From the NCBI RefSeq assembly GCF_018609725.1, contig NZ_JAHENT010000021.1, forward strand, positions 1 to 44,031: a stretch of DNA of 44,031 nucleotides, given 5' to 3'. A model generated the notes under the pieces. The model saw nothing but the letters and a program-made list of their open reading frames with translations. It was not told the DNA's origin and ran no database searches. Numbering within the stretch: position 1 is the first letter of the stretch; the number at the start of each line of letters is the position of its first letter. Below are positions 3,260 to 33,396 of this stretch, in pieces. This DNA comes from Methanohalobium sp. Its GTDB lineage: Archaea > Halobacteriota > Methanosarcinia > Methanosarcinales > Methanosarcinaceae. Position numbers and translations under genes: made by a program.

Positions 3260-4747
3260 TTACTGACCCATTACTTCTTTGTCAGCTCTGTCCATGACAG
3301 CTTTCATATCCTTCTGGATATCGGAATCGATTGGCTCTACTTCATAGTTCTTCAGGATATCTTCGACTTTTTCATGTGCAACATCGATGATGTCCTTGGA
3401 ACCATCTTTCTCCCAGTCACCAAACATTCTTCTGTCAACAAACATTGGGTCGGATGGCAGCTCGATCTTCTGTCTGGTATCTTTCAATGCGAGGAAGTTG
3501 TTACCGATTCCAACTTTACGGATATTGTCGATATTCATTGTCTCATCGGTGACTTCGATACCTTCCATTGCCTTCTTGGTCATTGATATCATGTCGTTAT
3601 CGAATAACAACTGTTCAAGTGAGAAGGTCATACCAAGTTCAAGCATACCTGAGCCATACAGGGTGTTTGCACCTGAGAGTGCTGGGAGAAGTGTTGTCAT
3701 TGTCTTCTCGTGACCTGCCTGGCCATCAGGTACCTTGGAGTCTGCCTATGAGCCTGCTACATAGGATGGGAGACCATAGTAATGACCGAGTTTTCCTACA
3801 GCTCCACTAATAAGTCCGAGTTCTGGTGAACCGACAGGTGCTGTTCCTCTCTTCAGGTCAAAGGTTGTGGTAGAACTACCGTACCATACTCTGGCTCCTG
3901 GCTGGGTGATCTGGGCAAGTACAATTCCTGAAAGTACCTCAGCATTGTGGGTCACAAGGGTTCCAGCAAGGTCAACTGGTGAAGAACCGCCAGCCATTGC
4001 CATACTGAGCACGTTGAGTGGTATTCCGTAGCGTGCTCCTTTCATGATGACCTGACATGCGTTGTCACCAAGCTCTAATGGACTGGTTGGACACAGAAGT
4101 GCAGAGAATAGTGGTTTGTTGCGTGCTTCTTCTTCATCTCCACCGTAGAACGCTTTGCAGATGTCGAAGTAGTATTCCATTGAATCTCCGACTGGGTCAA
4201 TGTGCTGGAAGTGCTTTGCTGTGTTTACAAGTGGTGTGTAGGTCTCATGAACATCCTGTGCTCCTTTTATTGCCCAGTCCCTTGCGGATACTGGCAGTGA
4301 GAAGTAGTCGATGTTTTCTGCCCAGTCACATACCTTTGCACAGTCTGCAATATCCTGTTCCACTGAATCTTCGGTTTTGAATTTACCGTGTCCTTCATAA
4401 CGGCACATTTTGATACCGGTACCAAAGCAGGTCCAGTGTACCTGTCCTTTATGGGACTGTTTGAATGTGTTTTCTTTGGTTCTACCGTAGAGATTGAAGC
4501 TTGATGGTGCGAGCTGTAGTGCTCTGTTTACCAGATATTCTGGTATTTTTACAACATGTGTGTTCTCGTCTACATCACAGCCATTCTCTTTGAATAACTG
4601 TCTTGCTTCAGGATCTTCTACTCGAATTCCTGGATCCTGGAACAGTTCCATGGTTGCACGGTGGATTTCACCGAGCTCTCCTTCACTGAAAAGTTCCAGA
4701 TTTACTCCGTTTAATTTATCCTGTCCTGGATAGAAGTGTTTTCCCAT
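3260..4747 (-). CDS. mttB: Trimethylamine methyltransferase MttB, with in-frame UAG (pyrrolysine)
   Basis: A 495-codon gene formed by two open segments joined in frame across a TAG at 3746-3748. The TAG is codon 334, the same position as pyrrolysine 334 in Methanosarcina MttB, and the total length matches the family. Translation resumes in frame ([15 protein letters not shown]) straight into the conserved second half. MttB transfers a methyl group from trimethylamine to MttC; the pyrrolysine sits in the TIM-barrel active site. The start ATG has a GGAGTG ribosome site. A weak ACCTG/CAGGT inverted repeat (3713-3717, 3727-3731) follows the amber codon by about 14 bases. Treating the two halves as separate genes would be an error. 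No pyl genes are in the window. Confidence 0.96.
3746..3748 (-). other. In-frame UAG read as pyrrolysine in mttB
   Basis: This is the only TAG lying inside a recognised reading frame in the window. The sequence before (GLPSYVAGS) and after (ADSKVPDGQ) is continuous with MttB proteins, so the codon is translated, not a stop or a mutation. Pyrrolysine insertion needs PylT and PylS encoded elsewhere. Confidence 0.95.
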
Positions 4748-31958: not shown

Positions 31959-33200
31959 ATGCAAATCAATGCCGACCTCCACCTACATTCTAAGTATTCA
32001 ATGGCTACTTCTCAAAAAATGAATTTACCGACAATGGCAGAGGAGGCAGGCAAGAAAGGGATCGACCTTGTTGGTACAGGTGACTGCACTCATCCCAAAT
32101 GGCTGCAGGAGATTAAAAAAGCCTCATTAGATGATGAAAACATCCAGATTAACGATACCCATTTTTCGCTTACAACCGAAATCGAGGATAAAAATCGAGT
32201 TCACCATGTATTGATTCTTCCATCAATATCAAAGGCTGAAGAACTTGCCGAAATCATCGGCAAACATGGTGACATTGAATCAGACGGAAGACCTTCCGTC
32301 AGAATGGATGGATGTGATATCGCTGAAGCCGCAAGAGATACAGGTGCATTAATCGGCCCATCTCATGCATTCACTCCATGGACTGCCATCTATGCTGCTC
32401 ATGATTCACTTGAAGACTGTTATGGTGACATGACCGATTACATATCCTTTGTGGAATTAGGGTTAAGCGCGGATAGTGATTATGCAGACAGAATTAAGGA
32501 ACTGCACCGACTAACCTTTCTTACCAATTCTGATGCTCATTCCCCTTGGTCGAACAAGCTTGCCAGAGAATTTACACGGTTTGAAGTAACCGATATCAGT
32601 TTTGAAGGAATCGAGAAAGCCATATTAAGAAAAGAAGGCTATAATGCCACACTTAATGTTGGTTTCTTCCCACAAGAAGGTAAATACAACGAATCCGCCT
32701 GTGTAAGCTCCAAATGTTTGAATCACTATAATTACGAGAAAGCAAGTTCATTAAACTGGAAGTGTCCATGCGGTGGCAGAATTAAAAAAGGTGTATATGA
32801 CAGGGTAAATGAGCTTGCCAATTTTGATAATCCCCAACATCCAGACTACAGGCCGGAATACATCCACCTTATACCGCTTGCAGAAATCATTATGAAAGCA
32901 CTGGGACACTCCAGCATCAATACAAAAGGCGTGGCAAGAGCCTGGAATACACTGATTAAAGAATTTGGTAGTGAAATAGCAGTCCTTGTGGATGCAGAAC
33001 TTGAAGCTCTTGACGTGGATGAAAGAATAATCGATGCCATTGTTGCATTCAGGAAGGGGGATGTAATACTTCACCCAGGTGGTGGAGGGCAATACGGATG
33101 GATTGAACTGCCAGAAAAAACGGTTAACAAATCACAATCCAGATCTGTTTCAGAAAATAAATCCAGTCCAAATGGTCAGAGTTCACTTCTGGATTATTAA
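31959..33200 (+). CDS. endoQ: Endonuclease Q, DNA repair
   Basis: A 413-aa PHP-family nuclease that cuts DNA 5' of deaminated bases (hypoxanthine, uracil, xanthine). The PHP metal site begins INADLHLHSKYS (3-14), followed by LVGTGDCTHPKW (about 36-47), GPSHAFTPW (about 132-140) and LTNSDAHSPW (about 187-196). A zinc finger (CVSSKCLNHY...WKCPCGGR, about 248-272) and a C-terminal helical region follow, as in EndoQ proteins. The start has AAGGAG. The final 30 residues are serine and asparagine rich. It ends the information-processing operon that begins at priS. Confidence 0.9.
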   Translation: MQINADLHLHSKYSMATSQKMNLPTMAEEAGKKGIDLVGTGDCTHPKWLQEIKKASLDDENIQINDTHFSLTTEIEDKNRVHHVLILPSISKAEELAEIIGKHGDIESDGRPSVRMDGCDIAEAARDTGALIGPSHAFTPWTAIYAAHDSLEDCYGDMTDYISFVELGLSADSDYADRIKELHRLTFLTNSDAHSPWSNKLAREFTRFEVTDISFEGIEKAILRKEGYNATLNVGFFPQEGKYNESACVSSKCLNHYNYEKASSLNWKCPCGGRIKKGVYDRVNELANFDNPQHPDYRPEYIHLIPLAEIIMKALGHSSINTKGVARAWNTLIKEFGSEIAVLVDAELEALDVDERIIDAIVAFRKGDVILHPGGGGQYGWIELPEKTVNKSQSRSVSENKSSPNGQSSLLDY

Positions 33201-33217
33201 TTCTCGATACTTATATA

Positions 33218-33268
33218 ATGGATAAAAACGTTGTAAACCAGTTACTTGAAAATGAACAAATTCAATAA
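33218..33268 (+). other. Short open frame before the tRNA, uncertain
   Basis: An ATG-to-TAA frame of 16 codons (MDKNVVNQLLENEQIQ) lies just before the tRNA gene. Its ATG is inside TTATATAATGG, which is also the best TATA candidate for the tRNA. It has no ribosome site. It may be chance or the head of a displaced gene. Confidence 0.15.
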
Positions 33269-33272
33269 CTAT

Positions 33273-33396
33273 GCCGGGGTGGCAGAGCGGACAAATCCAA
33301 CGGTGTAACTATATATCTGCCGTGGAGTCTATACGCGGCAGGCTCGAGACCTGTTGTCCCTTTTGGGACTCCTGGGTTCGAATCCCAGCCCCGGCG
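33273..33396 (+). tRNA. tRNA-Ser(CGA) with an apparent 38-nt intron in the D arm
   Basis: The acceptor stem GCCGGGG (33273-33279) pairs with CCCCGGC (33389-33395), with discriminator G. The anticodon arm GCAGG-CTCGAGA-CCTGT (33338-33354) gives anticodon CGA. A GTCCC/GGGAC variable arm and T arm CTGGG-TTCGAAT-CCCAG are complete, as expected for class II serine tRNA. The D arm (starting GCAGAGCGGACAA) is interrupted. A bulge-helix-bulge-like fold (GGAC 33289-33292 with GTCT 33327-33330, bulges AAA 33293-33295 and ATA 33331-33333, inner stem TCCA/TGGA then CGG/CCG) predicts removal of about 33295-33332 and a mature 86-nt tRNA. A T-rich run follows the gene. Confidence 0.88.

Follow-up and report, generated by a model that had tools for sequence, protein, structure and literature searches.

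The window, by which we mean the whole stretch of 44,031 nucleotides analysed here, is contig C21 of a source genome of 2.09 Mb in 161 contigs; another genome of the same genus has a chromosome of 2,242,317 bp. In the window lies a tRNA-Ser(CGA) gene with an insert in its D arm. The sequence-only reading had given the gene these coordinates, had counted 38 extra bases in the D arm and had described the remaining arms as undamaged, all of which was confirmed from the sequence: the class II variable arm, anticodon arm, T arm and acceptor are intact. The gene, the parts into which we divide it and the element upstream are listed below, with BHB standing for bulge–helix–bulge.

33212–33219, + strand: TATA-box-like element TTATATAA, ~54 bases 5' of the tRNA, named for its resemblance to the consensus only
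33273–33396, + strand: tRNA-Ser(CGA) gene with the D-arm insert, read from the sequence
33273–33294, + strand: 5' exon, acceptor 5' strand and positions 8–21 (TGGCAGAGCGGACAA), from the sequence and a gap-free alignment to intronless orthologues
33289–33292, + strand: 5' strand of the predicted BHB central helix, GGAC, pairing with 33327–33330 in 36 of 36 aligned homologues and in a wider set
33293–33295, + strand: 5' bulge AAA, with the cut predicted after base 2; TAA, CAA, AAA or AAT in relatives
33295–33332, + strand: predicted intron of 38 nt between tRNA positions 21 and 22 (ATCCAACGGTGTAACTATATATCTGCCGTGGAGTCTAT), missing from the orthologues of families f4 and f5 and of the outgroup classes
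33296–33326, + strand: inner hairpin of the intron, TCCA(A)CGG ... CCGTGGA, from pair probabilities and compensatory changes
33327–33330, + strand: 3' strand of the central helix, GTCT (elsewhere GTCC or GTTC), from the homologue alignment
33331–33333, + strand: 3' bulge ATA, with the cut predicted after base 2; ATA or AAA in 93 of 96 distinct introns
33333–33396, + strand: 3' exon, containing the remainder of the D stem, the anticodon arm (CGA), the variable arm, the T arm, the acceptor 3' strand and the discriminator G

A sequence resembling the TATA-like element, CTCGATACxTATATAA, was read upstream of the Methanolobus homologues. Just 5' of the tRNA gene, at 31959–33200 on the + strand, a protein of 413 aa is encoded that gave no Pfam match; its C-terminus, QSSLLDY, is like a PCNA-interacting motif. 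Elsewhere in the window Rfam detected PYLIS_3 (99 bits; 3649–3748, − strand), the pyrrolysine insertion sequence of mttB, and a tRNA-Pyl is present in the source genome (L073).

Predicted spliced product and bulge–helix–bulge motif

When the insert was removed, the resulting 86-nt RNA was called as tRNA-Ser(cga) by ARAGORN. The unspliced gene received no ARAGORN call with introns disallowed and was misread as tRNA-Asn with introns allowed; the Ser(CGA) gene was reported neither by ARAGORN at default settings nor by Rfam at the gathering threshold. The intronless Ser(TGA) of the same genome could be aligned with the spliced Ser(CGA) across 86 columns without a gap; 23 of the 27 bases at positions 1–27 were identical. 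Two families of the order, f4 and f5, have intronless Ser(CGA) orthologues (GCCGGGGTGGCAGAGCGGACTAACGCGGCAGGCTCGAGACC or close variants), and intronless orthologues (GGACTAACGCG) from f4, f5 and the outgroup families f12 and f22 aligned gap-free with the spliced window tRNA. The four compared in this way were identical to it at 72–79 of 86 positions, and at 25–26 of the first 27. Since the intronless orthologues match the spliced form, the junction 33294/33333 is supported. A cut at 33295/33334 would give an identical product, and the bulge rule picks 33294/33333. The proposal that cutting inside the bulges yields a normal 86-nt class II tRNA thus agrees with both the ARAGORN call and the best orthologue (79/86).

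No other intact Ser(CGA) gene was found when the source genome and the closed genome of the sister species (G001) were searched. In the closed genomes of relatives, a covariance model built from the intron-bearing gene gave no further match at E ≤ 1e-10 besides that gene. Intronless orthologues score near 1e-14 with this model, inside the cut-off, and therefore no intact copy is hidden in these genomes.

The window sequence places a 4-bp central helix (GGAC/GTCT) between 3-nt bulges, AAA and ATA, on opposite strands. Shuffling the insert with the exon GGAC held fixed produced the central helix in exact register together with four inner pairs in 0.05% of cases. Each of the 36 distinct homologues aligned, all of a single family, has a paired central helix, in which one pair alternates between G.U and G-C; the inner pairs show two-sided compensatory changes. 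A wider set comprised 96 distinct introns from 198 loci, certain loci being the same genome covered twice. The search pattern for this set demanded GTYY, so that its central-helix count is partly built in and the independent support comes from the inner helix: the three inner pairs adjoining the bulge form in 95 of the 96 introns, against 5% of shuffles, with a loop that is free to vary and an intron length of 17–47 nt. The fold suggested by the sequence-only reading (central helix, bulges and inner stem) was therefore borne out by the exact sequence, by conservation among relatives and by the shuffles, and the inserts of the relatives, examined in both sets, also fold as a BHB.

Folding by itself is not proof of the motif. 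Without constraints, the minimum-energy structure (−55.4 kcal/mol) is a different one from the BHB fold (−48.6 kcal/mol). With the cloverleaf stems enforced, six of the seven inner pairs of the window had probabilities of 0.93–0.94 and the seventh 0.47, and the central helix reached only ~0.4–0.5, because G17 can pair with C23 instead; the competing helix, G15-C16-G17/C23-G24-C25, stands at about even odds. Local minima of 98 distinct sequences were divided 46 versus 46 between the two states, with six others. The decisive evidence for the BHB, beyond the chance calculation, is conservation among relatives.

The outer helix had been called weak, with a C–C mismatch beside one bulge. In register it is indeed irregular, with C16 opposite C23, but it is not simply weak, as better pairings exist. 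Taking the 3' bulge to be 4 nt long allows G15-C25 and C16-G24 (plus G17-C23) to pair, giving 2–3 bp; alternatively the mature D stem, with pairs 10–25 and 11–24, can take this role, and the possibilities compete in folding. As modelled, the outer helix would be either the D stem itself or 2–3 bp with a 4-nt bulge, and not the regular helix of the strict motif.

Distribution and probable history of the intron

The covariance model was searched across the family, the order and the phylum. Full-length matches were obtained in 64 of the 111 family genomes, covering 8 of 14 genera, and a copy at a contig edge (L212) represents a ninth genus (g2). Two other families of the order, f2 and f3, gave further matches, as did f7, and also f8 and f32 in other classes of the phylum; Methanothrix also has the D-arm intron at the same site. 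When 84,980 species genomes were scanned for the pattern, 97 matches were obtained, and the titles of their records include Methanohalophilus, Methanolobus, Methanococcoides, Methanosalsum, Methanomethylovorans, Methanothrix, ANME-2 (HR1), ANME-3, Argoarchaeum, GoM-Arc1 and a few other Euryarchaeota. The expectation that such an intron would be unusual in a methanogen does not hold for this lineage, given its presence in so many genomes of the family and in other families. Comparison with the tRNA-Ser(CGA) of close relatives showed the same-site intron to be common to many of them, and the intronless orthologues to correspond to the spliced sequence.

Families f4 and f5 lie inside the order and lack the intron. 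The Ser(CGA) of Methanosarcina-like genomes (g5, g13) is 84 nt long, intronless and different in sequence; it was detected with the covariance model, whereas a DNA search of these genomes with the full precursor mostly matched the T arms of other tRNAs. The D arm of the Methanosarcina-like Ser(CGA) (L121–L128, L180, L181) resembles that of Ser(GGA), and its sequence suggests that another serine tRNA replaced the original one via an anticodon change. In the outgroup genus g52 (family f18; L343, L344), the intron of Ser(CGA) lies at the canonical position 37/38, and the D arm has none.

Other inserts were seen in the same gene. Methanothrix-type genomes (L185–L204, L207, L211, L216 and others) have an extra T-loop insert of 30–44 nt between positions 59 and 60. 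In its 37 distinct sequences TTCA (once TTCG) stands opposite TGAA or GGAA, in a BHB-like arrangement with AAN and AAT bulges and with the T stem as the outer helix, and the first two inner pairs form in 37/37. The fen/SPRUCE archaeal genomes of f8 (L233, L262, L299, L352) have a D-arm intron of 17 nt and, at the same loci, an apparent extra insert in the variable arm (TTGATGC...GCATCGC). Two ANME-2 genomes (L277 and L297; L161, L160) have a palindromic element of ~65 nt (TCGAAAATCG...CCTCAG) in Ser(CGA), one copy in the T arm and one in the anticodon arm, which is probably a small mobile repeat.

Judged from these sequences, the intron is widespread in the class and was probably ancestral to it. 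The history would most simply be one of class ancestry and vertical inheritance, with later exact losses (f4, f5) and gene replacement (Methanosarcina). We consider it unlikely, if worth keeping in mind, that a spliced intron was instead gained independently at the same site in several lineages. Archaeal introns can copy to other tRNA genes, as in Thermoproteales (PMC4090602), and independent gains would fit the occurrence in f8 and f32 outside the class and the absence from f4 and f5 inside the order. However, the position and the tRNA are the same, the inner helix has the same TCC/GGA start in most families, and the gaps are simply explained by losses and one replacement.

Splicing endonuclease and proposed processing of the transcript

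The source genome has one PF01974 gene, encoding ~354 aa with two PF01974 domains. The same single two-domain gene was found in 23 further genomes across the class (24/24 including its own), and none of the 24 genomes examined has a gene for a second endonuclease subunit. The protein aligned over almost its whole length with the enzyme of Archaeoglobus fulgidus (1R0V/2GJW; E 2e-35), a likeness at the sequence level only that includes the two-domain single gene and the catalytic-region motifs. Kept with respect to the A. fulgidus enzyme are FRVY, PHSEY (PHSEYLV) and KRM (KKRM). We take FRVY, PHSEYLV and KKRM to hold the catalytic Tyr, His and Lys of the second domain. The subunit type, which had been named as a point to check, is by sequence α'2, this being the sole PF01974 gene in the source genome and the 23 others. 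Reviews describe α'2 enzymes as poor at processing relaxed motifs (PMC6379350, PMC4033280). The A. fulgidus enzyme is able to cleave a full-length pre-tRNA at a relaxed 37/38 site (PMC6379350).

We propose that in the transcript of the single Ser(CGA) gene the exon GGAC would pair with the intron GTCT and the intron hairpin would close, forming the BHB. The α'2 enzyme would then cut inside each bulge (33294/33295 and 33332/33333), after which an RNA ligase would join the exons into the 86-nt tRNA. The archaeal RNA ligase for this step is RtcB.

Taken together, our results support a D-arm BHB intron as by far the best reading, because the spliced form corresponds to the intronless orthologues, the BHB is conserved throughout the class while its loop varies, and neither the source genome nor the closed genome of the sister species has a second gene. 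The points counted against it are the different minimum-energy fold, the modest probability of the central helix with the cloverleaf stems enforced, the irregular outer helix and the poor handling of relaxed motifs that reviews ascribe to α'2 enzymes. The intron is almost certainly spliced, and we infer transcription, cleavage at the predicted bonds, ligation and function of the tRNA. We are highly confident of the reading as a whole, namely that the sole Ser(CGA) gene carries an archaeal protein-spliced intron at 21/22 that would be processed by an α'2 enzyme and probably goes back to the ancestor of the class.

That the insert is never spliced out and stays in a working tRNA as an enlarged D arm seems very improbable to us. 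The exon stems outside the D arm are intact, and the unspliced RNA does have a stable alternative fold, but the retained insert would pair with G18 and G19 and so abolish the normal D loop. The spliced sequence, moreover, occurs in the intronless orthologues, the bulges and central helix are conserved while the loop and the length vary, and a splicing endonuclease with conserved catalytic-region motifs is encoded. We give hardly any credence to a pseudogene or silent copy, with UCG codons read by another tRNA: Ser(TGA) exists and could in principle read UCG by wobble, but the exons of Ser(CGA) are almost invariant across relatives, its stems show compensatory changes, the closed genomes of relatives hold no other Ser(CGA), and a TATA-like element lies upstream. 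A recent mobile-element insertion into the tRNA gene is scarcely conceivable, for although small palindromic elements interrupt Ser(CGA) elsewhere in the two ANME-2 genomes, the D-arm insert occupies one site across many genera, is single copy in its own genome and has ends that always pair with the exon GGAC.

Relation to known archaeal introns and significance

BHB tRNA introns at non-canonical positions have been described in Crenarchaeota, Nanoarchaeota, Korarchaeota and Thaumarchaeota and, according to a 2011 paper (PMC3218864), in three thermophilic euryarchaeal methanogens, and the D-arm positions listed for archaeal introns include 20/21 and 22/23 (PMC4090602). Reviews tie non-canonical introns to crenarchaeal-type (αβ)2 or ε2 enzymes, and describe Euryarchaeota with one canonical intron per gene. 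One model of tRNAscan-SE 2.0 was trained on euryarchaeal as well as crenarchaeal non-canonical introns (PMC8450103). The present intron is like the non-canonical ones in being a short insert in the D arm, with two 3-nt bulges and a 4-bp helix, whose removal restores the mature tRNA. It differs from them in occurring in Euryarchaeota of many habitats with an α'2 endonuclease, and at one site in one tRNA with class-wide inheritance rather than spread over many tRNAs. With the canonical 37/38 introns it shares the splicing motif and presumably the enzyme, and it differs from these in its position, 21/22, and in its irregular outer helix. The introns of some sequenced species are probably, we assume, already listed by GtRNAdb/tRNAscan-SE 2.0. 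The kind of intron is already known; on the sequences compared here, its euryarchaeal spread appears wider and its age greater than the reviews imply.

With introns allowed, ARAGORN misnamed homologues (L095–L114) as Phe, Glu, Gly, Leu or Arg. The D-arm intron therefore leads a simple gene finder to miss or misname this serine tRNA, and serine-tRNA annotation of the group may be wrong where ARAGORN alone was used.

A D-arm intron in genomes with only an α'2 enzyme is a clean natural test of the specificity of that enzyme, and cultivable species are available in Methanococcoides, Methanohalophilus, Methanolobus and Methanothrix. As the intron is common to methanogens, ANME and ethane-oxidising archaea, it offers a long record of gain and loss, in which exact losses and the second intron, in the T loop, have their place. 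We suggest tentatively, as a possibility that is still open to real doubt, that processing introns which lack a regular outer helix is routine for the α'2 enzymes of the class, in the D arm generally and in Methanothrix in the T loop as well. The accepted rule that α'2-bearing Euryarchaeota contain strict-motif introns at 37/38 only would then fail for the class as a whole, and the intron would be a very old, vertically inherited element whose gain and losses can be traced.
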